Shown here one piece after another: positions 26,001 through 51,265 of a stretch of DNA of 64,000 bases. The number at the start of each line of letters is the position of its first letter. Within the stretch, counting starts at the first letter, position 1. The notes under the pieces are model-generated. The model did not search any database. It was not told where the DNA came from and was given only the letters and a program-made list of their open reading frames with translations. This DNA is from Pempheris klunzingeri (taxonomy: Eukaryota > Chordata > Actinopteri > Acropomatiformes > Pempheridae): contig NC_092033.1 of the NCBI RefSeq assembly GCF_042242105.1, positions 4,776,908 through 4,840,907 of the forward strand, written 5' to 3'. A program made the translations under genes and the position numbers.

Positions 26001-29000
26001 TCTTCTTACCAGTGTCAAGCCGTTTCACAGGGGACTCTCCCTCCTCTTCATGCTCCCCCTCTCCCCCCTCTTCCTCGCTGTCTCTTCTCCCACTGTGCTT
26101 CCTCTTCTTGCTGTGAAGCAGCGTCTCCAGCCTGGGTATGACCACTGACAAGAAGGATTTGGAGCCCAGCTGCGCGCCCTCCTCGTCTTCCTCCTCCTCT
26201 CCCCCTTTTATGTCGACCCCGTCGGCCCCCTCCTCTCCGCCCTTCGGGGCCTTGTGGGGGCTGGCTGTCTTCGATTTGCGGAAGAGCACGGCGGTGCGGC
26301 GGTTGACGGTTCCCGTGCGCTCGGCGAGGGTGGACGTGGCCACTACGCTCACATCTCCGTCCAGCAAAGAGTTCTGTAGGCTGTCGTGGGAGTAGCCGTT
26401 GAGGTGCGGCGTAGAGGACAGCAGGTCTGGTATTTCACTATCGAACTTGACGCGCTTGCTGTGACTTTTGTCCTCGCAGTCCGGGGCGGCGTCGATTGGT
26501 TTGAGGGTCGGGGGCTCGGGGTCTGTGTCTGAGTGGATGAGGGGAGGGATGGAGTCTGAGGGCTCTAGCTTGGGAGGAAGAGATTTGTCTCCTGTAGGGG
26601 AGAAGAAGATGAAAAGCAGAGACACGAAGTGTTTACAGCTCTAATTTTGACAATACAGCCAACATGAATCGTTCAAACTGCGAGCACTAAGTACAACACA
26701 CATTATTCACACTAGGACACAAAGGCAGTTTTTATAGTTATTGCCAAGTTTTTGATAATTATGCTTTCTTTGGTTTTTGGTTGCAGTGCATCTGGTTGTA
26801 TTATTTATACTAATGTATTTCCCCTCTCTCTTTCATCATCATTACCATTTCCACATGGTGCTATAAAAATACTAAAGTATAATACATTTTATTGTGGCTT
26901 AGCTATGCAGAACAACATAATGAAATTGTTGGCAGACTCCTTTGGAAAAAACAGCAAACAAAAGCTATTCATAACTAGAATTATCGCCTCGCGGTTGTGT
27001 GCCTCCACCAGCCTGTCAAGTTGCAGTTTACATTTATGTCTGTCCAGACCCACAATTAGTGTCACCAATTCAGAATCCAACCACATGTGAAATACGGTTG
27101 CTTCTGTTCTTGAGTTGTGGCGTTGAATAATAACCAGAAGACTGTTGCTGCAGAACATTATGATGTCACAGTGACGCTGACCTTTGACCTTTTGGACATA
27201 AAACGCCATCACGAGTCATCATCCTCGAGTCCAACTGGATTTTACAGTCTACTCATGGCAAAGACAAAAAAAAAAAAAAAGACCTGCAGAGCAACAATAT
27301 TACCAACAGTAATGCGCTACAACACCCACACTTTGTCCAAGTGTAGGAATGCTGACTCAGCGCATTATCTCATGGCGTTTGGGTTTATCATAAAAGTAAA
27401 ACAAGGCACTATTTAGCATAACACTGAGGCATTTTATGAATAAAAAATGAGAGCAAAATTACTTTTTCCATTCTTTTTTCCCCCTCCAACTAGCTCATTA
27501 TAACGCTATCTATTCAGGGATCGGATCCGGAGGGAGACATAAGAGTGTTGTTACGATTCACCAGCAACACTTATTCTCCGCTGCTGGAGCACAACCGTCA
27601 CATCCATGTACTCCTCAAGTTGTTACTGTCTGGTGCTGCAATTTGAAATAAGGAGTTCACAACAAGGTTTTCTGTGTCTGTAAGCCTTCTGAACACTTCT
27701 CAGCTTAGCGATCTGTAATATATTTCAACAACCGTCTCTCAGATATAAACATGCTGATCAGATTTCCATCTACAGTGCCATTTGAACACAAAAGCTGCCG
27801 CTGCTCCACTCACAATTAACTTTCTAATTACAGATTTTTATGACCCGTTCTCTGTCAAAAAGATATGTTGTTGGTGCAATAAAGTCAAATATGTGTACAT
27901 TACGTAATTAAGGTTGTTTCAGCTTTCTAGCTTTAGGAAATAACGGTTAATGGTCACAACCGGAGGTTGTCCCAAATACCAAGAAACATCTGTTTTTAGC
28001 AAAACACAGAGATGGGGTGTGTTATGATTAACGATTAGTTATAGTGGCCTGGAAATCATGCATAATCTCTATTTTGTTCTTCAAATTGCTAAAATAAATC
28101 TAAGATGTGGGAGGTCTGGAACCAGGATGATGTTATAGTACTGAAAGTAGCAAAAACGGCTATACTACCATGTTCCACATACATTAGGTATGAGGAACAG
28201 CATGTGACTTTGCTTTGTGAGGCTGTGTTTTGGGTTGGGGGGGTTAATCTCTGATCTTTATCCTGCGCTACAGGATATTAAGGACATGTGATTCTGTTTA
28301 AAGTCGCAGAGGCTGGTTGACGAGCACGATGTCAACCAGAAAATTCGCTCTCTAATAGTCAAAGCAGATCCATACGTACCCTCATCATCAGGAAAATGTC
28401 CATTGGGCTTCAGTCTCTCTTCTTTAGGATTACTGAGCACTGGGTGGGAGGCAGCGGATGAAGATGATGCCGATGTGGTGGGAGTTGTGGAGGACGAACA
28501 GTGGTGGTGGTGGTGGGAGGGCAGCACTCTCTTTAGGCTCATTTCGTTGCGGACGTCGTTGATGGTCTTTTTGAGCAGCTTTAGGCGCTTGCTGCGGGAG
28601 GGGCTGGACTTCATGGCACAGGTCAGGTCAAACTTCTCCAGAAGCAGCTGAAGCTGCTTTTCCTGAGACAGATGCTCCCGATTGGCTGGCACTAGTAGGC
28701 GGTCCACTACGGAGAGAATGAAAGCAATCACTGGGAGATTGAAAGACAGTTTTCATTTGCCCTTATTCTGATGATGCAAACACATCACACAGGTGTATGT
28801 CTTTGCCACTGCCCTTACCGTCCTCCCAAGAAAAAGATGGCGGTGCTTTGATTTCGGGAGCTTCATCCAGATGCATGCCGCTTTCCGAGTCAAAGCCAAT
28901 TTTCTCCACATCTCGCCGGGCCTTTCTAATCAGAGCCCCACCCTGGTCTCGGAGGCGGACAGCAGCCCGGTAGAAATAGGTGTCCTTTGAGTTATATTTC

Positions 29001-32000
29001 ATACAGTTATCAACAATGAGGTTGAAGTCATTCTCAAACTGCTCCAAGTTGTTGTAGCCCTGTGCATCGATGCGCTGCCGCATGGTGGAGAAGTCCATTG
29101 GGTGCTTGATGTGGTCGAGATAATCGGGCACCTACAGGAAACGGCAAATATGAATGATGAATTACTTCAAAATGACTGAAACTATTTATTTACTAATGAG
29201 AGGTAAGAGGCAAAGATCACTGTGTTGCGTGGGAACTCAATGTTCTACTGTTGTAGATACAGCTGTCATTCATATCAATAGGAGTTGGGCAACATGACAA
29301 TAAAGTTAGTTAGATAGTAAAGTAGCTACAACATAAATGTGTTGTTCTAAGTTTAAAAAATTACTACAAAGTCTTAAAACTTAAGACATTTGATTGTCAA
29401 AATGACAAACACTAGTGATGAACTCCAAAGCCAAAAGTTTCGCCCAACGTGGGGCTCGAACCCACGACCCTGAGATTAAGAGTCTCATGCTCTACCGACT
29501 GAGCTAGCCGGGCTGGCACATGTTAGCACTCTTCACCTTTCACGACCACAAGTCAGGAGACTCTCAAGTTACACATTCAACACACCAGGAAGTCACATTG
29601 CTCAACGATGTCTACTCAGTGTGGGGGAGGGTTGATTTGTAGCCTCAGTCACTGTGTTCTGAACCTGTGACGTGGAGCAGGCAGCTGTCTGCTGGCTGCA
29701 GTCTCTGTGGTTTGTGTCCTAATGCAACTTTTAATACATGTGTGGTGACTCCAGGGACTGATCACCGTTGGTAGTTTGTTTTTAGGTCTACTTGGTGTAT
29801 GTGTGGCTCTTAATCATTAAGGAAACTCATATTAAGTACTTGATATTTAACAAGATCACACTCTGTGTTGTACATGTTCATATGACAGCAATAGGCATCA
29901 CCATTCACGCCATTATTTCAAAATTTCTGGAGTAGTTATCTGGCAATCAGGCAGGAAAATAGGTAAAACAGACATGCTGTGTTGCTGGCAGGGGGCTTTC
30001 GCCCTGACAAATAGCACAATGGCAAAATTCACAGGGCTGTGTTGAAATATGAACCAGCAGGTCCGGTTTGAAGGCATATAAAACAGGAAATCGTGGGATG
30101 CTCAGGAAGACTATATAAGTCCTTGTATTTGCTTTAGGCCGGACTTTACACCTCCTAAAAAGTTAATTGTGGCTGCAGTTGTCTTTCCCATCTCCAACAA
30201 CCAAACAACAAATTGGCATATTGCTACGAGGTATGTCCAGTACTAGGAGTTATTCTTCCTATTATGTGAGCTTGCACCTGTATGGTTAGCAAACAAAATG
30301 CACTGCCATAGCCAAAAAAGGAAGAGCCAGAATTCTGTGTGACCAAACACAACAACAGAACTTAAAAAAGTGTTCAAATATCTGCCGAAGCTCACCTCAC
30401 TGACATCAACCGGCTGGGTGAAGATCCTGGCCTGGTCTTTTGTCTGGAGCTGGTCCAAAAGGGCTCTGAGCAAAATACTGAAGGGGGTGAGCTGCATCTC
30501 CATGAGGGTCTCCTGCTGTTTGATCTACAACACAGCACAGAGGGAAACCATTAGAAGTTCGGATTGTTTCATTTATTCAGCAGAATTGCTCTGACCTCAG
30601 GTGACGCCAGGCGTCTGCTCGTCCGCTCCTACCTCTTCCCTCTTGAGCTTCTCCCTCTTGCGGATTAGCTCCAGCAGCAGCCGGGCTCTCTCCAGGTCGT
30701 GTCTGAGACGATGCCATTCCTTCAACTGGTCCTTCAGTGCCCTGCTCTCCTCCTCATTCTGCCTCTGGACAGGAAATTCAAATAAAGACCAGTTTAAAAA
30801 AAAAAAAAGAGTAGAATCAAAAATAATCAACTTGCACAATGGCTGCGTGTTTCTCAAGAAAATACATTTTCCATAAAATGAGGTTTTCACTGAGATCCAC
30901 ATTTAGCAGCAAACACACAACACGGCCAAACACCTTTTAATAGCAGCAGTAAAGTGTTGAAAAGCGTACTAGGCAAAACATAAAAGATTACAATGGAACA
31001 AAGTAAAAACGTGTGAAATTGAATGGCCATATGAAAAATTAAAACACATATTTAGAGTTCTAAAAGCTACTGGTACTTTGGTAAAAGGCAAAATGAAGAC
31101 TGAAAGCCTTCTGTGGTTGACTGACAGATGAACAAACCGGCTGTGCATTCTTCTGCGCCTGCAGGCTTGTCTGAAGGCGTCTGATGAGGGGAAGCCCATT
31201 CCTGGATTGCCTCTTTAGTGTCCAGTAATTAAGGACCAGCTCCACAAATGCTTTCTTCTTCTGGACTGACACCTGGTTCAGAATGGTTTGTAATCTAAAA
31301 GAGGAAGATGGGTATTAGGAGGATACAGCCAGGGTGGTTACCAACAACTAGCACATTTTAAGAGTCACTAGCTGCTTGCAGGTTTATATTCCGGTATATA
31401 TAAATTCAGAAAACAGATTATGGGAACAGTGGCACAGAGTGGAACAGAGTTTTTCAGTGACAAACTTAAAACAGCAGTGGACTGGCATTCGACACAGACC
31501 AAATGCATGAACGCCAAAACACTTGCCAATGTCACATTTTTGAGAAACACAGACAAGTGCTCCCTAGACCACCAGTCCCACATCAAGCAATACATCAATG
31601 GCGTTCAAGTGAATGTAACTGAATATCCCACAATGAATCGCATACTATGCCTCGTATCATTCACACAGCTCATAATTATACCTGTGAGCAGGAAAAGTAG
31701 GCACAGTAGGAGGGTTTGCAGCTTCGCTTTCAGGTTCAGGCTCAGGCTTCTTGTTCTTACTCTTCTTCTTCTGTTTTCCTTTTGACTGTACTTTCTCTTT
31801 GACCACTTTCTTACATAGTCCATTTTTGGGTTTGGCATCATCGTAGATTGTAAGAGGCCTCCTTACACACCCATTAGGTGTGTGAGCTCCACAGTAGGCT
31901 GTCTTTTTCACAGAGAAAGTAGGCTCTCCTGTTTCCGTAACGTCTTTGATTGGCTCCATTTTCATAAAGAGGCCAGCCTTTTGGGCACAGCTGACATGGA

Positions 32001-33072
32001 AGGCGGTGTAGCAGTTGGCTTTGTGGCACTGGATGCACGCCCCAACACCTCTCTCCTTGCAGAGGTAGCAGGTGAGCTTCCAGCGGGCAGGGGGAATGTG
32101 GCTGACACCATCAATGGGTTCGATGAAGGTGGTGTTGGAGAAGCCGACCTCGGGAACCCAGAGGGCACACACCACGTGGCCCCAGCGGTCGTCGTCTGTT
32201 TTTTTCACCGCTCCACCTTTGTTAGGACAGAGGACGCAGTCTGCGGGCTGGGTGGGTGACTGGAGGCAGTGTCTGCAGAGCCACTGGCCCTCAGGAATGT
32301 AGGGCACACCGTAACATTCCTGGTGCACAGCCACGTTGCACATATCACAAAACAGGATGGCGTTGCTGTTGTGACACTCTCCATCCATGCAGATGCAGCA
32401 GACGGCGTCCTCGTCGATGGGAGCTTGCTTTTCGCTGCCTTGATCCAGGCTCTCCAGGTACAACTCTTTCTCAAAGCGATCAATAAGGAACTCAAAGACG
32501 TTGTGAGAGACCTGACTGACCCCTTCACTTCTCCGTTTTTCATTGACCAAATCCAGCCATGCATAATCTTCCTCGTCCATGTCGTACTCCGTTTCCTCAT
32601 CCAGCTCTTCCTCCGTCTTCTCCGTGTATTCATAAAAGGCAGCTGGGCGCTTAGGAACTGCTGGAAGATTATATTCCACTGTACGAAATTTAGGCTCCGG
32701 AAGCTTTGGACCAGCATTAACACCGGCATGATGTCCGCCTCCCTCCCCATGGCCAGTGATGCCCAGTGCAGCGTTTCTCTTCTCCTGGTTGTTTTTTAGT
32801 CTGACTGACCTCAGGAGGACCTGCTGCTGCGGTTTCTCAGCATTCTCCTTATTGCTGGTGCACTCCATCATCTCCTGCACCATGGGGTCATCGTCCGACA
32901 TCACGTCCAGCTTGTCATATATGCTGACCCGATGGATGCGGCCATCGATATCGAACTCCACCATGCGCTGCGCCTGGGCGTACGTCAAGATCTGCTTGTT
33001 GGGGGAAGGCTTGATGGGAGATGGTGGCCTCTGCGGCACCGCAACTCGGTGCTGCCGAGCTTTCTTTTTCAT
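21173..33072 (-). CDS. brd1: Bromodomain-containing protein 1 (BRPF2), 12 coding exons
   Basis: Scaffold of MYST acetyltransferase complexes (KAT7/HBO1, MOZ/MORF) with ING4/5 and MEAF6; it acts in the nucleus on histone H3. Exons, in transcript order: 31682-33072, 31138-31294, 30633-30764, 30396-30524, 28819-29131, 28380-28706, 26010-26591, 25394-25535, 24507-24640, 23291-23400, 22548-22702, 21173-21356. They total 3756 bases (1251 residues) and all phases agree. Visible domains: the BRPF N-terminal motif [22 protein letters not shown] (about 30-51), PHD1 from CCICMDGEC (about 225), a zinc knuckle, PHD2 (to about 394), a bromodomain about 565-670 with the acetyl-lysine Asn in KYN (650), and a C-terminal PWWP from [17 protein letters not shown] (about 1120). 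The end, SDLSDVD, matches BRD1 (human SDLSDID), as does [12 protein letters not shown]. It is longer than human BRD1 (1058/1189), mainly in the acidic 582-base exon 7 and a His/Ser-rich stretch in exon 6. BRPF1/BRPF3 were considered; synteny and these motifs favour BRD1. Confidence 0.95.
22752..22772. repeat. Short (CA)n run in brd1 intron
   Basis: About ten CA units just upstream (on the minus strand) of brd1 exon 11. Confidence 0.9.
22862..23012. repeat. Long compound (CA)n repeat in brd1 intron 10
   Basis: About 150 bases of CA repeat. The left third is broken at intervals by a CC step, giving a higher-order unit of roughly 12-16 bases; the right two thirds are uninterrupted. It lies between brd1 exons 10 and 11. 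Confidence 0.95.
24787..25362. mobile_element. MITE-like element with TTAAAGGGAT ends, in brd1 intron 8
   Basis: The left end is CTTAAAGGGATTGTCAGG and the right end is GCCATCCCTTTAAGG, short inverted repeats. Inside are the phrases GAAGTGGGGCTGTATGAGGTA and GCCCCCAGTTTGGAGGAGAA, which I recognise from a very frequent percomorph repeat. There is no transposase. It sits between brd1 exon 9 and exon 8 and does not touch splice signals. Confidence 0.7.
26970..27240. repeat. Interspersed fish repeat fragment in brd1 intron 6
   Basis: The text around ATTATGATGTCACAGTGACG, CTGACCTTTGACCTTTTGGA and TCGAGTCCAACTGGATTTTA matches a common non-coding fish repeat from memory. Its boundaries are approximate, and no target-site duplication was found. 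Confidence 0.5.
29441..29513 (-). tRNA. tRNA-Lys (anticodon CTT)
   Basis: 73 bases on the minus strand with a full cloverleaf: acceptor stem GCCCGGC/GTTGGGC (G-U pairs at positions 5 and 6) and discriminator G. The A box is TAGCTCAGTCGG, the anticodon arm is GAGACTCTTAATCTC with anticodon CTT, and the B box is GGTTCGAGCCC. No intron is present and CCA is not encoded, as expected in eukaryotes. A TTTT pol III stop follows a few bases downstream. It lies in the brd1 intron between coding exons 4 and 5, on the same strand as the host gene. The promoter boxes look intact, so it is probably functional. Confidence 0.95.
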
Positions 33073-33092
33073 CTTGACGCTCCGTGTTGCTG

Positions 33093-33902
33093 TGGAGACC
33101 CAGAGCGGAGAGAAACAGCTATAAATCTACATAGATACAGTGTTGTGTGGCCTAATGCACACTTTTTCACAGCAACAAAACAATCAAACAACAAAAACAG
33201 AATTGTTTCAAAAGTGAGACTTCCTCAAAAGCATGAGATAAGGCTGTCATATCAATGCATCACATGCAAGTCAGATAATAAATCATATTAGTGACATCAT
33301 TTCTAATTGATTGGTATAATAATGTGCCTGATTGAAAAATAGGGTATTCTGGTCCTCTGGAGCAAAACACACAAAGGCATAGCATTTTAATGCATTACAC
33401 TTTAATAACATTTAACCAGTTAACCAGCTGATAAAGAACCTAAAAGGACGTGCAACTGTCACTGGTGTTACTGCTTCACACTACAGAGACTGTCCATGTT
33501 ATGAACTGAGATGTAGTAGCCAGCTGCATCTTACAGCTTTGTCAATGAGCTGAGGCATTTAAATGCGGTGGGGGGCGGCCACTCAGGCCACTTTCAATAT
33601 GACTGCGCAGGAGTTTAGCACTTGCCCATTTGGTGCAGAGATGCAATTCCCTTTAGATTAACAAGTCACAGTCAAAGTGACCAAGTTGCTAACAATAACA
33701 TTAGCTAGCCAGCTAGCTAACAAGAGGAGCTAGCCACCCCCTAAACGGACCAAATGGCGTCAAACAACACAAGAGCTCTTTAAAACAACGTTTGTTAAAT
33801 CACACACAAAGCGTACCATCAAACATTTTACAGATGCACCGTGTGCCTCCTCGTCTTCGCCAGATAAAAAACAGAAAAGCAAATAAAAACCAAAGCACGT
33901 AC
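33093..33902 (-). other. brd1: brd1 5' UTR intron (predicted)
   Basis: On the minus strand the coding exon 1 acceptor is at 33090-33092 (TCTCCACAG), 17 bases before the ATG at 33072. An upstream consensus donor, GAG/GTACGT, is at 33897-33903. Together they predict a non-coding first exon ending at 33903 and an intron of about 0.8 kb. The ATG at 33072 opens [16 protein letters not shown], which matches the basic N terminus of BRD1. The exact exon 1 start is unknown. Confidence 0.55.
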
Positions 33903-38579: not shown

Positions 38580-38623
38580 CAAAGCAGACCTGACTATTCT
38601 ACAGAAACCCTTGGGCTGCTACC

Positions 38624-41600
38624 ATGGATGGGGAGGAAGAGGTCTCTCACATGAGCGAGGATATGTTCAGTGAACCTAATGGCACCATAGAAAAAAAACG
38701 AGAGGCAAAAGGGACCTGCCTGAAAATTGAGGGCCAGGATGGCTACGTGTTCAAATCGTACAGCATTAACCCTCACGAGACTGCGAATGCAAAGTCTCCC
38801 ACTTGTTCCTCATTAACACTAGATAAAGACTGTTCCTCCTTTTTTCATTTATCTTCTCAGGATGACAAACAGTTGGAATCAGACCAAGCAAGTGAGACTG
38901 ATCCAGCTTCTCCCACTCCTTCAAACAAATGCCTAAACGATGATGCTGAGGGAAACACGGAGGGTGAAAAGTATGAAAATGGTAATGAAGCAAGTGAACA
39001 TATCAAAGAGGAGATTGTGGATACAAATGGGATGGAGGAGGAAACCCAGGATGATGAAAGGCTTGGATTTGGTAGTTCAATTGGCCCTTTTGTAACTAGA
39101 GAAGGCGACGAGTATAGTAATTTACTAAGTGGGTACACAAGCACCCTTTATGATGTTGCCATGGATGCTGTAACTCAGAGCCTTTTGTCATCTATGAGGA
39201 GTAATACCAACCCGAGGAAAAAATCTCCTGCATGGAATCATTTCTGCATATCGCCACGAGACAGTACCAAAGCAATCTGTTTATACTGCATGAAAGAATT
39301 CAGTCGGGGTAAGAATGAGAAAGACCTCAGCACAAGTTGTTTAATGAGGCACGTGCGAAGGGCTCACCCCACTGTGCTCTTACAAGACGGAGCAGACACA
39401 TCCTCAAACAATTTGACTAGCTCTCTCGCCTCATCTTTGATACCTCCCTCCCCAAACTCACCAAAAAACGGAGATTTGACAAACAGCGTTATTTCTTCTG
39501 CCTCAAAGAACACTTCACCGTCCACCTCCTCTGCTGAAAATTCAGATCTGTCATCCAAAGAAGTGTTACCCAAAGTCGAACCAAAACTAGAACCGTATGC
39601 CAACATTGACACTGTTTGCAGCACGCTCGCATCCTCACATTCCAATGAAAACAACCTTGAAGACATGTCAGACGGAGGGCCCGAGCGCCTTCCCGGGACC
39701 CCTAAAAGCTCGAGTTCCCGACGGAGATCAGCTGTGTGGAAACATTTCTACCTGTCACCTGCTGACAATTCCAAAGCAGTATGTATCCATTGCATGAATG
39801 AATTCAGTAGGGGTAAAAATGGGAAGGATCTAGGGACAAGCTGTCTTATTCGTCACATGTGGAGGGCCCATAAAGAGGTTGTCATTGAGGAAAATGGTCA
39901 GGGCAATCACATTCCCCCACCCTACACAAACCCGCCCTCACTATTGTCCCGCACACAACTACAGGATCCACTGGAGTTAAAGAAAGAATCGCCCCTTCTT
40001 CCATCCTCACCAGAAACCATATCAGATGAATTACCCCAAAGCATGGAGGAAAGTATGGATATAAAAGAGGAATCTGATGAGGTGATGCAGCTCTCAGGGC
40101 AGGAGTCCTCTCTCAATCTCTCCTTTAAAACTCAGGGGGAGGATACACCCCTAACTTCCTCACCATGTGACCTCCCTGAGGGCCCCGGCCTCAATCAGGA
40201 CCATTCAGTTTTCCAGCAAAACAAGAAAATCATGAAACGGGTGAAATCTGAAGTGTGGCACCATTTCATAGTGTCACCAGTTGACCAGTTAAAAGCACTG
40301 TGCCGTTACTGTCCATGTGTCATCAGTCGGGGGAAACGGGGCGACTTTGGTACAAGCTGTCTGATGAGGCATCTTATGAGACGCCACCCTGACGTCCTCA
40401 AAAACCAAAAAAGCACAGATGAGAAGGAGTCCTCCCCTCATCCCTACACCAATCTCACCGCAACGGACGCAGTTTCAACCCAAGAAACTGAGAGCCCTGC
40501 CAGTGAGAAAAAGCCACAAACCCTGCCTGTTTTCAGCAAAAAGACATCAAAACTGTGGAACCACTTCTCCATTTCACCTGCTGACCCCACAAAGGTGGTT
40601 TGTTTGCACTGTAGCCGCACAATTAGCAGAGGCAAAAAGACTACAAACCTCGGCACAAGCTGCCTCTTCAGGCACATGCAGAGGTTTCATGGACATGTTC
40701 TTGAAAGTAACAATTCTATCTCAGGTGATGTGCCGTCTGCTGAAATTCAAGTTAAACAAGAGCTCATGGACACTTCTGTTTATGAAGCAGAACAGAACCG
40801 TGAGAGGTTTGATGAACACCACCCGGTTGCCAAAAAAATCACCAAACTTATCGCAGAAATGCTCGCACTGGATCTTCAGCCATCAGCTCTGGTGGAGAAT
40901 GCTGGACTGAACAGACTACTAGAGTACCTCCAGCCTCAGTATTCTCTACCACCTTCTTCTTACTTTACCAGCACTGCCATACCAGATATGTACGAAAGGG
41001 TGAAGGATGTAGTGCTGACCCACCTGAAAGAGGCTGAAGGTGGTGTCGTCCACTTCACAACTAGTATTTGGGTCAGCAGCCAGACAAGGGAATACCTGAC
41101 CCTTACTGCCCACTGGGCAACATACGAGTCAAGTGTCAGACCCCAGGGTCAGGACTTTCACTGCTCCGCTCTCTTAAGTGTCTCTCAAATAGACTGTGAT
41201 CACGATATGCATGACATCCCAAAGCAGCTCGAGTATCTGTGGGATTCTTGGATCACCTCATCAGGGCTGAAAAAGGGGTTCACTGTAACTGATAACACCA
41301 CCATCAGAAACACCTTGGAGGACCATGGCCATGTCACCATGCAGTGTTTTGGACACACCATAGACCTCATTGTTAGCGAAGCCATAAAGAGCCAGAGAAT
41401 GGTTCAGAACCTTCTGAGTATTGCACGAAAGATCTGCGAACGTGTGCACCGCTCTGCAAAGGCCAAGGAGAAGCTGGCCGAGCTCCAGAGAGCCCACCAG
41501 CTGCCAGAGAATCAACTGATTCAGGATGTTCCCTCCAAGTGGAGGACCTCCTTTTTCATGCTGGAGCGGCTGGTGGAACAGAAGACAGCCATCGACGAGA

Positions 41601-42403
41601 TGTCGATAGAGTGCAATTTCAGGGAAATGATCAGCTGCGACCAGTGGGAGGTGATGCTGTCTGTCTGCAATGCACTGAAACCTTTCGAAGTCGCCTACAG
41701 GGAGATGAGCAACCGCACTGCCACTCTGGGACAAGTGATACCCCTCATTCACATCCTCAATAGAAAGATAGACCTGCTGTTTGATGAGACTGTGGGCATA
41801 GACACCATGCTCAAGTCCCTAAAGGAAGCCATGGTGAGCAGAATGTCCGCAACTCTGCACGACCCACGATACACCTGGGCGACCATGCTGGACCCAAGAT
41901 ACAAGACTTCTTTGTTCACGGAGGAGGAAGCAGAGCAGTGTAAACAAGATCTCATCCGGGAGCTGGACTTGTCGTCTTCTACCTCAGTGGCAGTCAAGCC
42001 TCTGCTGCCCAACGGCTGCAGCGAGGGCCCCGTTTCATCCAACACCCCCCACTCACACAAGGACAACCTCTGGTCCTTGATGGCCGACATCCGACAGAAG
42101 ATAAAACACGAGGAGAAGCCAAAGTCCTCAGAGCTGGCAGTGCTGGAGTACCTTGAGGAAGACATACTTGATCAAAGCTGTGACCCCCTCGACTATTGGA
42201 ACCTGAAAAAGTTCCTGTGGCCCGATCTTGCCAAAGTAGCTGCCCGTTATGTGGGCTGCCCCCCCAGCATCGTCCCAGCAGAGACACTGTTCAGCACGGC
42301 TAGTGTAAACTGTGCCCTAAATCAGTCCAGGCCTTTACTGGAAAACATGGAGGGTCTGCTGTTCCTCAAGGTCAACCTCCCTTTGATTTATTTTCAGTAC
42401 TGA
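38624..42403 (+). CDS. zbed4: Zinc finger BED domain-containing protein 4
   Basis: A 1259-residue protein encoded in one exon (human ZBED4 is 1171). The start has a strong context, ACCATGG. Four BED-type zinc fingers are visible, each as an aromatic W..HF, then CxxC, then a GTSCL-type segment and HxxxxH: about 199-250, 367-420, 539-592 and 640-693. An acidic N-terminal region and Ser/Pro-rich linkers separate them. From about 740 to the end it resembles a hAT transposase: a VTDN segment (Asp 890), a C-F-G-H motif just after, and the C-terminal dimerisation block around [14 protein letters not shown]. It ends [13 protein letters not shown], as in human ZBED4. No flanking inverted repeats exist, so this is a domesticated host gene, not a mobile copy. 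Human ZBED4 is a nuclear, DNA-binding protein reported to interact with nuclear-receptor pathways. The flanking brd1 and alg12 support orthology. Confidence 0.95.
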
Positions 42404-43733: not shown

Positions 43734-46700
43734 TCACTGTTTTTGTCGCTCAGTCGCAGTCTTTCGTTCCATCAGCATAGTTTTTCTCTCTAACCGCACC
43801 CTGACAGGAGGGAAGTGAAACAGGTCGAAGGCAATGTTGCTGTAACCTTCAATGAAGGCCAGAGGCTGGTGGGTGTCCTGGAGTAGCTGTATGTTAGTGA
43901 CGTTCGCCTCCATGAGCAGGTGTGTGTACATTTTGATCTCAGGGTTGCTTAGGCTCAGGTCCTCACGTTTGTCATATCTGTTGTAAAAAAAAAAAAAAAA
44001 AAATCATAAGAGATAGCATCACAAGGGTAATCGTTATTGTGTTTATTGTGTGTGTGCGCATTGTGTTTGTTACAACAAAGCAATGAAAACACACTAACCT
44101 CCAGTTTCTGTTCTGCTCCAAGAAGCGAGATACACCAGTTTCAGCAGCATAGGTGTCAATATGAACAAAGACATCTGCAGGAACAAAGACATGGTGTAAC
44201 AGTGCTAATGTTGTGACTGTATTAGTATGCACTACTTTGTATGATTTCTGCCAAGATTCTTTAGTCTTATGCACAATTAATATAGTTAATCACATTAATA
44301 ATGAGTTAAGATTAGTTTAGTTTAGATGCACAACATAGAAACTACATACTACGTGCACATATGATCAAGATTGTCCATATTTTCAATGATTAAATCTTAA
44401 ATGTAAAAAAATGTACTGAGGCAGGTGGCAGGAAATAATAGTGTCACCAATGTTTTCTATGAGGAGCAAATGATGTGTAAAAGTGATTCCAACCTGCAGT
44501 TTCTGGCAGCAGCCTGTGTAGTTCCTGCAGCCCTCGGCCCCCCGGGTAGTTGTGGTGGGAAACATAGAGGCAAATGCCAGAGTACGCCGTGTTAGTCAAC
44601 AGCTGGCCGACCACAACTGCAGAGCCCAGTTTATACATCCAGGATTTCTGGTAGTTGCACAAACTGAAACATAAAGGAAGAAGAAAGTGAGCGGTAGCTT
44701 TCACACGGCCACGCTGTTGACACAAGGCGTCTTTCTTATGATGACACTGATATTAATATCTGGAAAACAGTTGCTCCGTATCTATTTTATGAGCGAGAAA
44801 TAATAACTATCCACCTGCCAAGTGCAATATACAGCATGTAAATGTCCCCGTCGTGGGACTAATAAAGGAATATCTTATCTCTGCTGGTTGTGCGCTCCAA
44901 AGTGCCACTTCAGCAAGTCAACTTTCTAATCTTCCAAATGATTTCTGTGTCTTGTGTTACATATTTTACTTATATAACGATGGGAGAATCTGTTTTGTAT
45001 TGGAATCCATCAGACAATGTTGTTGGATGATAAAACATAAATGTCCTGCCCTGTATTTTTTAATGTACGCATTGGGGTAACATGGTTCGACTTGCATGAA
45101 AGAACAGCCTCGGGCAGCCACCAGGCTGAGCGCAGGGAAAGTGTATATGATGAAGCGCATCTCCTTGTGGGGCAGCAGCGAGTAGATAAGGATGAAACCG
45201 ACGGTGGGTAACAGCAGCAGCCTCATCCGCCTGTCAAGGAGGCCAAGGGGCACGAAAAGCAGCGTGCAGCCCAGAGCACGGGGCACAGCGGAATAAAAGT
45301 ACCACAGAAAGGGAGAGGTTTACTGAGGAGAGGGGAGTCAAGGAGAATCGGGGGGTTGGAGATCATCCTCAATGATATTCAGTGACAGTAAAATACCAGA
45401 AAGTTCAAGTGCACGCATGGGTGATAGTAAAAAACATGTATGCTCGAGTACAATGAAAGGATATTCCCCAGTTGGAACTTTTGTTGAGAATAGTGTTGTA
45501 CCACAAAACCTGACCTTCAGGCCACAAAAACTTCCTCCAGAAGACCGTGTCAATGGCCACCGTCAGAGCTGTAAAAACCAAAGGAAATCAAAACCTGTTT
45601 GGTCAGAAGGGCCAATTTATTGATTCAATTGATTACTGACTAGGCACTTTTCTTTTCACATACTGTGCACTCACTACTCACCCAGTGACAAGATCCCAGC
45701 AGGAATAGCATAGTAAAGCAGCTGCAGCAGTCCCAGCTTCCTGCTCAACAGCGACAGCAGTAACATGAGACCCAGGAAGACGCAGAGCTCTGAGCGGAAC
45801 ACAATGATGACGAACGCAGAGAGGCTGATGAACTGGCCGTATTTCTGGGCCATCCAAGATGTGAAGGCAACCAGAACTGGAAAGAAAAAAAGATCGCCGT
45901 CACTGTGCCAGTTTTAGATTTAGTCACGAATTCAAGAAAACCTAATAAACTTAATAATCTTAATACAAAGTTCCTGGATTATGATGGTATTTACTGATGT
46001 ATCTTACCTATCGGCAGTGCAAATACATTAGGGAGCGTCCTGGTGCTGTAAAACATTAGGTGAAACTGAGAGGCACACGTCAGACAGAAGAGGCCAGCAA
46101 CTGTGGAGCCAAACTGCCTTCTCACCTCCTTCTGCATGTGCCATAGTGCACCGATGACACACGCTCCCAGGGAAGCTCGGACTGCAGAGAACACATCAAG
46201 AGAACGCTTTTGTTTAAAATGCTTAAGACCAAAAGAGACAACCTTGTTTCTAAGATAATTGTGGGTTGGAAAGTGCCGATATTGGCAATGTACCTATCAG
46301 TTGTGTGTAGAATTTCGGTACGTCCAGCAGAGACGACAGAAACACAACAGGGGAGCAGAGCGTGGAGAGAAACAAAGGGCCAAGGAAAGTCCGTGGCACC
46401 ACACCAGGGAACTCATGATGGTCATACTGAAAGACAGGAGAGGCTCCGGTCTCAACAACACTAATACAAACAGACCCTAATACAATAATTACTAGTTAGC
46501 AGCTGATCTAGAGGTCGTAATCATATCACATTAACATTTCTATTATTTGCCACGAATACTGGGAAAACTTAATAATCATCATCATCATGATCGAAAGCTC
46601 CAAAATAGCAACTCAATGGATTTTGAGCTGTTCTCAGTTCTTTAGGCGTTTTGTAGATAATTATGATAAATACCTACATATTGCAATATGTATATGATGT

Positions 46701-47391
46701 AACAGTGAATAATGCAAAGCAGCATGATCATATGACTTAATATGAATGCTTATGTAGAACTACATGATTAGAAGTATATAATTTTGAACTAGACAAATAA
46801 AATCAACACAAATGTTTCTGTCAAATATGAATTGTATCTTTTTTTTTTAAGCTAATATGGCAACGATAAAACAGTAAGATTATATTTTATAGGAGAAATT
46901 CAGCATTTATTTCTCTGACTAACTTACATAATGCTTCTGTGAACAGTACAAGCTTTCTCATGTTTATGCCTTCATCTTATTTATGGTTTTGTATAACATA
47001 CAGTGTGAATTTACCAAAAAATATCTTCAATGTTCCATCTTTGGGACTTTTATACATTCAAACACGTTACAAATGATAAAGCTTTAACCCTCCTCACTGT
47101 GTTCATGTAAGTGTTGTCTGTGTGGTTTGTGTTTTCACAGGTGTTTGATTTGAAAACACTCATTATTTCATTCACTGGTGCTGAGCACTGTCAGCTTGTT
47201 TAGCACATCTAGCATCAATAACGCCTGCTTACCTTGTCCAAGTTCAGTCTGTGATACAGGACGTCGTGCGCCGCTTGTAGATTAAAACTCTCCTCAACTT
47301 TAGTGAATGGGCAAAGTAACAAATGCAAGAGCGCCACAGCTATTAATAAAACCAGCAGTGGCAGCCCCAAAACATTCCTCTTTTCAGCCAT
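43734..47391 (-). CDS. alg12: ALG12 alpha-1,6-mannosyltransferase, nine coding exons
   Basis: ER membrane enzyme of family GT22. It uses dolichyl-phosphate-mannose to add the eighth mannose (alpha-1,6) to the lipid-linked N-glycan precursor. Exons in transcript order: 47233-47391, 46294-46426, 46008-46181, 45682-45876, 45465-45568, 45096-45319, 44494-44663, 44099-44174, 43734-43977. They total 1479 bases, 492 residues (human 488), and the phase is consistent throughout. Recognised segments: the luminal-loop motif [13 protein letters not shown] near the N terminus, [53 protein letters not shown] and NYPGG; hydrophobic stretches fit a multi-pass protein. Two introns are unusual: intron 5 reads as a U12-type AT-AA intron, and intron 6 as GC-AG. 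An in-frame ATG at 47436 would add 15 residues; 47391 (MAEKRN) is preferred because it aligns with the human start. Confidence 0.94.
43985..44003. repeat. Poly-A run at the alg12 exon 9 acceptor
   Basis: Nineteen A on the plus strand, which is the 19-base poly-U polypyrimidine tract directly before the TACAACAG acceptor of the last alg12 exon. Confidence 0.9.
44838..44881 (+). mobile_element. LINE 3' tail remnant in alg12 intron 6
   Basis: The phrase CCCCGTCGTGGGACTAATAA, followed by AGGAATATCTTATCT, is the typical 3' end of an abundant fish LINE, known to me as a CCCC..GGGA.TAATAAAGGAATATC tail. Only the tail is present. Confidence 0.6.
45320..45464 (-). other. alg12: alg12 intron 5: U12-type (minor spliceosome) intron with AT-AA ends
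   Basis: On the minus strand exon 5 ends TGGGGA and the intron begins ATATCCTTT, an exact match to the U12 AT-class donor. Near the 3' end is CTCCTTGAC, one mismatch from the U12 branch-site consensus TTCCTTGAC, with its A 19 bases from the exon. No GT donor fits the frame. Ending the intron after CAGTAA gives Gly then ACC TCT CCC, i.e. N-W-G-T-S-P, identical to human ALG12. Ending at CAG would put a TAA stop in frame; ending at the next AC would shift the frame. Hence AT-AA is the only in-frame reading. Length 145 bases. Confidence 0.75.
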
Positions 47392-47907: not shown

Positions 47908-50098
47908 ATGCTGTCCACCGGTCCACAGCTGCAGCTGCTGCGGCTATTGTCTTGTGTAACTCTTCTGTTACTTTTTCAAGTCACCGACGCCAAGAGGGAT
48001 CTAAAAAGCGCCTGTACCACCTGTCAGCAAATGACTGATAACTTCAACAAGGTAAAGGAGCATTTCCAAACCTCTCCTTTGTGTTGCTTATCATCTTGGT
48101 GTCTTGCTCTAATATTGTCAGTGTTCTTTCCACCTAAAATGGTGTGAAATGCCTTTATGATCATCCCTGTTTCTTTCTGTGCAAGCAGTGACACTATTTT
48201 TGTGTTTCAGGGCATCGACAGAACAGCAAAGCAGAACTTTGGCGGAGGCAACACAGCCTGGGAGGAGAGGAAACTGTCTAAATATGAGACGAGGTGAGAC
48301 GGTGCATCCTGTCCTCTCCAAAGCACAGGTCGCCCTGCCACAGGACAGCCATGTTTGCTTTGCCATCACAGCTGCAGACTGAAGCGTGTCACAGTTTTAG
48401 ATAAGCAGTTTGCATCTGGGATCTTTGCTCAAATGGGTGATAGCACAGGCAGACTTTCAACCTACAGCATTTAGAAAGTTTGGGGTGTTATTTTCCCACT
48501 CTTCCATGCAAGCACTTCCTTTTGTATCATACAGTTTATGTGGTGGCACACACTCATTTCCACCTCTTCCACTTGAAACTCCCATTGGTTCATCTCTTCT
48601 GATCACGGTTTGTGCTGTGCTTCCTGTACAGTGAGATCCGTCTGATGGAGATCGTGGAGGGACTGTGTGACAGCAGCAGCTTTGAGTGCAACCGCATGTT
48701 GGAGGAGCACGAAGATCATTTTGAAACTTGGTGGTTCAAGAGGTGGGTGTTGGCTCATGCAAATATTGTCAAAGTTTCGTGCCAATTTTTTTCCAGCCAC
48801 ACTTGCAGGTTGGTAGGATTTCAACCGACAGATGAACGTTCTGCTAGCGTGATTAGACGCCCTGACAGAGGCATCACCTGCACGGTCATGTGTTTTAAAT
48901 GATTGTTTCCTGCTTCAACACAGAAAAACAAAACATCCTGATCTGCACAAATGGTTCTGCATTGAAACCATCAAAGTGTGCTGTCCAAAGGGAACATTTG
49001 GATCGGACTGCAATGGTGAATACTGTAACTCTTTTAACCAAAATAACCCCAAGAGTCTGGGGCAGTAGCACGGATGTTAAAAGTAGTTTAATATGTTTGT
49101 GCTTGCTGTCTGGTTTTACTTTGTGAAGCCTGTGTTGGGGGCTCAGAGAGACCTTGCCATGGAAACGGAGTGTGCGATGGCGACGGGACTCGCGGAGGAG
49201 ACGGACAGTGCAGCTGCGACCACGCTTACGAAGGCGAGTTCTGCCTGGACTGCATCGACGGCTACTTCAACGAAGTGAGGAACGACACCTTCTCCCTGTG
49301 CACAGGTATGCCTCAGCACGCAGCGACCCAACGAGCAGCCGTCAGCGTTTGAGTGTGAGGAAAGCGGTGTTTTGTAGATCTCTAACAATTCACCTCCTCC
49401 TGCAGAATGCGACTCATCCTGCAAAACCTGCACTGGAGCAACCAATCAGGACTGTGATGAGTGCAAAGAGGGCTGGGAGGAGGATGACCAGGAAGCTTGT
49501 GTTGGTAAGAGGACCAGCAGAATATGTGGGGTTAAAATGTGTCCTATTTTTTTTTTTATCATTTGAAATAAGCCCTGGTTTAAAGCTTTTCTATGGATGT
49601 TAGCTTTTTGAGCCAAAACACAGCCTGCAGCAGACTAGATGAAGGTTGTTCTTAGTCTAGCCGACAGCCTTTTGCTCTGTGATGTCAGAGCAGTGAGGAG
49701 TCGGCAGCAAATGAAAGATAAAATAGGTTTTTCAAAAATTGTGAATCACCACAACAGGAAAGGTCTTCGGCATGCAGACATAACACACACACTTCATCAA
49801 CTGTGTGACACCACAATTGACCGTCTGACCTGATACGGTGTGTTTTTCATCCTGATGTGATAAAGTGCTCCGTAGATGATGGTCTGAGGACACCACTGTC
49901 CTCCTCACTGCAGTCCATCTCATGTGTTACAGATGTGAACGAGTGCTCCAGAGATCCTTCTCCATGCAATGAAGATCAGTACTGCCTTAACACGGACGGC
50001 TCCTACTCCTGCAAAGGTAATCCATCGCTGTGTTTAGCACATTTATCTGTAAGGTTCTGACACAACAGCAGCTAGTGTGTAGTAAAACGTGCTAATGT

Positions 50099-50141
<43 letters not shown>

Positions 50142-51265
50142 ACACTATCATTCCCTAATGCAGTGTTGCTTGTATGTTTTTGCAGGGAAATGATTGATTC
50201 TTGCTTTATTAAACATTACTCATGAAAATACATGACATACTGTCAATTTACTGCTGTCAAAATCATCATCTCCTCATTTAAACATTTTATTTGACATTCC
50301 TCTAATAGAAGGTTGTGTGTGTGTGTGTCTGTCCTTCCCAGCCTGTGACAGTGTGTGCTCTGGCTGCACTGGAGCCGGTCCTGATAAGTGTCAGGGTTGT
50401 GCCAGCGGGTACCAGGACGCAGAGGGCGCCTGCACAGGTAAAAACATGAATAAATCACTGTCGGAAGGCTTTCACTCCTTTTTTTTATGCTGGACATCAA
50501 TTATAGATGCACTCTAAATTGCTATTTTTATAGCTATGAGGAGAAAGATTTCTTGCATGTATCTGGATTCTTTGTGGAGAAAATCTGTGTCAGCGTGCAA
50601 AAATCCTTAATCAGAATATTTAAAAATTGAATATTAATATTAAGAGCAGCTGAAATATTGAAGAGAACAAAGGATACTCCTTATTGTTATTGTATATCTC
50701 TCTTTTTATGGACAAATCAATGTGTTGTGGACCTCTCAGTACTTTACGACTTTCACAGCAGAGGAGGAGAAGAGAAAACTCCAGGTCGATGCATCAGCGC
50801 TGCTTTTTGTTTTCCAGATATCGACGAGTGTTCCCAGCCTGAGTCGTTATGCACCGAGGAGCACCGGGTGTGCGTCAACACTAAAGGCAGCTATGTGTGC
50901 ATCTGCACGGGTGGTTATGAGGAGCAAGACGGCAAGTGTGTCCAAGTGCCACAGCCAGGTGAGGGTTAGTGCCAAATGATCTGTACAGATTCTACAGATA
51001 AAATCTAATATATGTTAATATACTTGAGCAGAAGGTTCACATCGTCCACAACAAAGTGTATTTATATCACAGCCTGTGAAAGGAAATTGTTTTAAAAATA
51101 CAAAGATGATGTCACATTTCAGCTGACATGAAATGTTGCTGTAGTTTTACAATGTTATTGGTATGAAAAGTACATTTTTATTAATGATGATATCCATTCT
51201 CATCAGAAAAAGAGGAAGAGTCTGAGGCACCCGAGACGACCACAAGTCCACGTGGCGAGCTTTGA
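47908..51265 (+). CDS. creld2: Cysteine-rich with EGF-like domains protein 2, ten coding exons (apparent 1-base frameshift in exon 5)
   Basis: ER-resident, stress-induced folding factor. Exons: 47908-48051, 48211-48293, 48632-48742, 48924-49015, 49130-49305, 49406-49504, 49933-50016, 50342-50437, 50818-50958, 51207-51265. They total 1085 bases; with the one base missing from exon 5 the protein would be 361 residues (human 353). Visible: a signal peptide (about 1-28), a C-T-T-C (CxxC, residues 36-39) site, the WE region (NTAWEERKLSKYE), the furin-like and EGF cysteine pattern in exons 5-8, and two DV/DI-D/N-EC calcium-binding EGF starts in exons 7 and 9. The C terminus is SPRGEL, where human has REDL, a weak KDEL-like retrieval signal. 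The frames of exons 1-4 and exons 5b-10 only join if a G is added to the GGGG at 49138-49141. I take this as a probable sequencing or assembly error, not a pseudogene, because all other splice sites and phases are intact. Confidence 0.9.
50100..50139. repeat. (GT)n microsatellite in creld2 intron 7
   Basis: Perfect GT run of about 20 units. A shorter GT run at 50312-50328 lies just before exon 8. Confidence 0.95.

Follow-up and report, generated by a model that had tools for sequence, protein, structure and literature searches.

Intron 5 of the alg12 gene of the fish Pempheris klunzingeri is very probably, judging from its sequence, a minor-class (U12-type) intron of the A-type, AT-AN subtype, in which an AA dinucleotide would serve as the productive 3' end. 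In this best-supported reading, the intron comprises 145 nt with AT-AA ends and occupies positions 45320..45464 (minus strand) of the window, i.e., the whole stretch of 64,000 nucleotides that was analysed. Its distinctive feature is one productive end, 18 nt past the branch A, that lies between an AG at +15 and an AC at +20, both of which are unproductive. The reading as a U12-type intron with AT-AA ends is supported because exact splice motifs, the lack of any open GT-AG, GC-AG or AT-AG pair in the searched range, a protein match across the junction and the presence of minor snRNAs coincide. Although unusual, these ends belong to a documented type that recurs in the same genome, and the first-pass annotation, which had proposed this class and these ends, most likely named the class correctly. 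The whole case is built on one assembly.

The alg12 coding region (43734..47391, minus strand) extends from a start codon at 47391 to a stop codon ending at 43734. Its nine exons, which were put together from splice signals and the reading frame, encode 492 amino acids without an internal stop. The product contains a Pfam Glyco_transf_22 domain (1.5e-44) and matches the solved sequence 9s6t_A over residues 1-483 (phmmer, 1.5e-205); this combination of domain and full-length match agrees with membership in ALG12. As the entry 9s6t is titled only “Mannosyltransferase,” the name ALG12 (alpha-1,6-mannosyltransferase) is our assumption, in line with the label of the first-pass annotation. The region matches a single place in the 646-Mb assembly (439 contigs), which rules out a second copy or retrocopy. 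Six of the eight introns are GT-AG, intron 6 is GC-AG and intron 5 is AT-AA, and a U12-like donor was found in none of the seven introns other than intron 5 (0/7). Intron 6 (45095-44664, minus strand) reads GC-AG with a strong donor, AT/GCAAGT, while an alternative GT donor 27 nt further on (AATGC/GTACAT) is in frame by reading and would insert nine residues into a stretch that aligns gapless to 9s6t.

The gene is arranged head to head with an EGF-domain gene, presumably creld2, which was read as starting near 47909. Elsewhere in the window, a 1269-codon open frame (38594-42403, plus strand) that codes for four BED zinc-finger stretches together with a hAT dimerisation domain is taken by us to be ZBED4-like. 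The exons located at 28763-33126 (minus strand), with EPL1 and PHD-type fingers at 31657-33126 and a bromodomain at 28763-29131, are assumed to belong to a BRD1/BRPF-like gene.

Exon 5 (45465..45568, minus strand) ends in AAC TGG GGA (N-W-G) and is followed by a phase 0 intron, and exon 6 (45096..45319, minus strand) begins with ACC TCT CCC (T-S-P) according to the gene model and the 9s6t_A match. Directly at this junction, the U12-type 5' splice site RTATCCTT is represented by an exact ATATCCTTT at 45456..45464 (minus strand), as had been claimed from the first inspection. This is the sole exact copy within the window, where 0.57 copies are expected, and the probability of RTATCCTT at a fixed site is 2.5e-5 in a first-order model of the window. 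A second GTATCCTTT at 50677 is antisense to the neighbouring EGF-domain gene and was dismissed as a chance-level occurrence. The branch site TCCTTGAC (45337..45344, minus strand; branch A at 45338) agrees with the consensus UCCUURAY (PMC10853781, in excerpt) at 8/8 positions. Consequently, the description of a near-perfect branch site was borne out, and only the extra first base of the originally proposed 9-mer is debatable. The probability of the branch motif within 16 placements is 1.2e-3 in the same model.

TCCTTRAY is thus found near the 3' end, with 18 nt between the branch A and the last intron base at 45320. In U12-type introns, this distance typically ranges from 10 to 20 nt. Among ten supported introns of the same genome (see below), the alg12 distance is the longest, the nine others ranging from 9 to 14 nt, which counts against the AA end. 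The same applies to the AG that is closer to the branch A and to the normally preferred AC just 2 nt beyond.

The consequences of the alternative 3' ends can be followed in the reading frame. Downstream of the branch A, a CAG is found at +15, AA at +18 and +19, AC at +20 and a distant AC at +39. Use of the CAG (45323..45325, minus strand) would place a TAA in frame directly after N-W-G, and use of the AC at 45318..45319 (minus strand) would shift the frame, with a stop encountered 27 codons later; the in-frame TAA and the frameshift had been predicted by the first-pass annotation and were confirmed. Full retention of intron 5 likewise leads to an early stop. The AA at 45320..45321 (minus strand) restores N-W-G/T-S-P and is the productive end in the best reading. 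It had been regarded as the only in-frame 3' end, which requires a correction in that the AC at 45299..45300 (minus strand) is also in frame, though at the cost of deleting TSPFLWY.

All donors between 45528 and 45369 were combined with acceptors up to 45239, and pairs that were in frame and stop-free were kept. Within this range 3,435 such pairs exist, including 8 AT-AC and 11 GT-AC pairs and none with GT-AG, GC-AG or AT-AG ends, so that an ordinary U2 junction is ruled out there. It is therefore extremely unlikely that intron 5 is a U2-type intron or that its motifs are a chance occurrence in a broken gene. This explanation can draw on the pyrimidine-rich stretch ending in CAG ahead of exon 6. 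It is also consistent with the genome-wide frequency of the motif pair, which in alg12's own length class (8 matches, 8 in the backwards control) is background; for this reason, the motif pair was rejected as stand-alone proof. However, the motifs coincide exactly with an exon junction in a gene that is otherwise open over 492 aa.

Comparison with the solved protein favors the U12-type reading with the AA end. The AT-AA mRNA is the best-scoring one against the 9s6t segment (460), and the 13 residues spanning the exon 5-exon 6 junction are identical to 9s6t_A. The best AT-AC pair, with a score of 454, is obtained if the donor is cut 2 nt downstream (45462 to 45318), which gives N-W-G-I-S-P. Such an intron would be in frame, stop-free and of equal length, but the cut would lie inside ATATCCTTT, thereby breaking the U12 donor register, and a Thr that is identical in 9s6t would be replaced; this arrangement is thus considered very improbable. 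Returning to the AT-AA mRNA, three placements of the intron (45465/45321, 45464/45320 and 45463/45319) yield the identical product, two of them with AA-TA or TA-AA ends. Therefore, cDNA alone fixes the mRNA but not the intron ends, and even perfect cDNA leaves the latter ambiguous by one base either way. The U12 donor register fits the middle placement (45464/45320, AT-AA) only. With a start in AT and A as its next-to-last base, the intron is assigned to the A-type (AT-AN) on the basis of the protein match and the donor register. We infer from the frame and the protein match that the spliced RNA would use the AA end.

The same genome was scanned for further introns of this kind with the pattern ATATCCTTT-N(64-156)-TCCTTRAC in three length classes, and the pattern read backwards served as control. 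The classes contained 13, 8, and 16 matches vs. 5, 8, and 3 backwards (37 vs. 16 in total), and the 37 matches correspond to 36 different donors, because L021 and L042 use the same one. For this motif set, joined frames that stay open with an AN end 8-25 nt past the branch A were sought, and their coherence was judged by eye. Seventeen donors were judged coherent (13 AC, 3 AA, and 1 AT), and the other 19, which gave no convincing joined frame, were dropped. Homology across the junction was detected in 10 of the 17 cases: alg12, SMYD2, a sodium channel, a TPR gene, IPO5, spermine synthase, KAP, a CCCH zinc finger, E2F and a second Glyco_transf_22 gene. For five of these (spermine synthase, KAP, CCCH zinc finger, E2F and the second Glyco_transf_22 gene) support comes from Pfam alone, which shows the gene and the frame but not the exact end. 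Seven of the ten supported introns end in AC, located 9, 9, 11, 12, 12, 13, and 14 nt from the branch A, and three end in AA (13, 14, and, for alg12, 18 nt). The SMYD2 and IPO5 AT-AC introns were recovered as controls, and their junctions match solved proteins.

The second Glyco_transf_22 mannosyltransferase gene (L032, G000:C1:16544182-16544346), which we take to be PIGB, carries what is likely an AT-AC minor intron close to where the domain begins. The seven coherent donors beyond these ten (L018, L024, L025, L026, L034, L037 and L041) comprise six AC ends and one AT end. No Pfam match was obtained for the L024, L025, L034 and L041 peptides, and the match of L018 is confined to the downstream side of the junction. 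The L037 peptide resembles the KAP peptide L022 and was left out of the homology searches. L026 (G000:C18:4945890-4945985) is a candidate AT-AT minor intron, whose peptide gave no match in a search against the PDB.

Apart from alg12, the AA end is found in the sodium channel intron (L040, G000:C10:16676626-16676782) and in the TPR-protein gene (L020, G000:C8:14866424-14866531). Among the ends listed for the sodium channel intron, a gapless match to Nav1.7 is obtained only with AA; the frame is likewise kept by an AG at +22 and an AT at +25, but their use would lose residues matching Nav1.7. The TPR-protein gene carries a likely AT-AA minor intron, in which an AG one base further on shifts the frame. 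Here, it is a repeat family that aligns gapless over the junction, a weaker case than that of the sodium channel. Of the three AT-AA introns, that of alg12 alone has an AG as well as an AC 8-25 nt past the branch A, both of them unproductive.

These two introns bear on the proposal that alg12 intron 5 is a plain AT-AC intron whose last base at 45320 (minus strand) is really C, the A being an assembly error or a private allele. AT-AC is the main A-type end pair, as seen in 7 of the 10 supported introns here, and a C at 45320 would not alter the mRNA. No positive sign of such a change was found, however, and the genome match of the region says nothing on base errors, since it only recovers the same assembly. 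Because two other AT-AA introns occur in the genome, AA requires no error, and the proposal appears improbable. A further possibility is that the last A undergoes A-to-I editing, turning AA into AG and effectively resulting in AT-AG splicing. Edited ends of this kind have been listed for GT-AA introns (PMC4176328). The same source reports that AT-AN minor introns are spliced and that some GT-AA and AT-AG sites show no signs of editing. Moreover, the fold around the site is not unusually strong (z -1.0; 28 of 200 shuffles fold as well) and an editing hairpin at the 3' end of intron 5 was rejected on this basis, which leaves editing with a probability close to nil. AT-AA ends had been called rare by the first-pass annotation. 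They are indeed non-canonical, and non-canonical termini account for approximately 3.8% of orthologous minor introns; yet AT-AA is the commonest of these termini in animals (PMC10639083, in excerpt) and is found twice more in this genome. In addition, U12-type ends have been described as more varied than once thought (PMC2831892, in excerpt).

The same 646-Mb assembly encodes the RNAs of a minor spliceosome. Matches above the respective Rfam cut-offs were identified for U11 (118.9 bits), U12 (128.7 bits), U6atac (135.2 bits) and, on two different contigs, U4atac (L003 and L004; 96.9 and 83.1 bits), and the species thus has the minor snRNAs U11, U12, U4atac and U6atac. Exons of the CCDC84/CENATAC family are also present. 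Pairing between the GTAAGGA in the U12 snRNA match and the alg12 branch site is possible at 7/7 positions, one G-U counted, with the branch A bulged. A check of U11 pairing was set aside, as the 5' end used for it does not occur letter for letter in L002. In the proposed mechanism, U11 and later U6atac would read ATATCCTTT, setting the 5' cut before its first A, and U12 would pair with TCCTTGAC while the A at 45338 is bulged. In the second step, exon 5 would be joined to the base following CAGTAA (last intron base 45320), which would generate N-W-G/T-S-P. The AG at +15 and the AC at +20 would be expected to give rise to some unproductive mRNA, presumably cleared by nonsense-mediated decay.

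To our knowledge, the choice of 3' ends by the minor spliceosome is still poorly defined. With AG, AA and AC within 5 nt and a protein obtained from AA only, alg12 intron 5 provides a natural test case, in which the preference could be read directly from the number of ordinary RNA-seq reads across each junction. The exon 5-exon 6 junction may be misplaced by aligners and gene finders with a bias towards canonical ends, and misannotation of non-canonical introns has been described (PMC4176328).

Compatible with the AT-AA reading, and adding to it, is the suggestion that the CAG (+15) and the AC (+20), used in a regulated or leaky manner, act as a poison-acceptor switch that sets ALG12 output. 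The first-pass annotation had likewise regarded the choice of the 3' end as a putative control point for N-glycosylation. Both neighboring ends are unproductive, A-type introns display a relatively high basal retention (PMC8280824, in excerpt) and a list of alternatively spliced genes with upregulation in ER stress includes mouse Alg12, without naming the intron (PMC5000506). The human ALG12 minor intron was retained at 8.0% in unaffected and 38.5% in affected samples in a study of Roifman syndrome (PMC4667643, in excerpt). On the other hand, the tandem arrangement may be no more than an accident that is tolerated, and AT-AG, like GT-AC, seems to be disfavored (PMC3584512, in excerpt). Overall, such a switch is unlikely. 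A built-in switch formed by the AG, AA and AC cluster, in which functional ALG12 would require the minor spliceosome to select the least common of three dinucleotides within 5 nt, would further couple ALG12 and the assembly of high-mannose N-glycans to minor-spliceosome (CENATAC) activity, a proposal that is slightly more doubtful still.

Within the same genome, the sodium channel intron L040 shares with that of alg12 the donor, a U12 branch site and the AA end, and its gapless Nav1.7 (sodium channel type 9 alpha) match covers 59 residues; it differs in that AA is located at +13, an in-frame AG at +22 and no AC occurs from +8 to +25. The SMYD2 (L010) and IPO5 (L029) introns carry the same donor and branch motifs but end in AC, at +11 and +9, respectively. 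Human IPO5 intron 21 has been cited as a minor intron with AT-AC ends (PMC8280824, in excerpt), and the fish IPO5 intron may correspond to it.

The alg12 intron joins a known intron type, given that AT-AA ranks first among the non-canonical minor termini of animals and that a minor intron has been reported for human ALG12 in the sources cited in excerpt above. It resembles the A-type introns, 92% of which were affected by CENATAC depletion and for which AT-AA is among the ends listed (PMC8280824, in excerpt), in its AT start, AN end and U12 motifs, and CCDC84/CENATAC exons accompany it in the genome. In contrast to these introns, AG, AA and AC ends lie within 5 nt in alg12, where CENATAC dependence is putative. 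A further report touching on ALG12 and intron retention concerns the last intron (PMC6929315, in excerpt). The closest counterpart is the human ALG12 minor intron, which belongs to the same gene and the same class; it is likely identical to fish alg12 intron 5, although its position and ends are not stated in the available passages of PMC4667643. The retention of this human intron in Roifman syndrome, where impairment of the minor spliceosome lowers the amount of correctly spliced transcripts, supports by analogy the earlier proposal that ALG12 production in the fish would likewise depend on the minor spliceosome.
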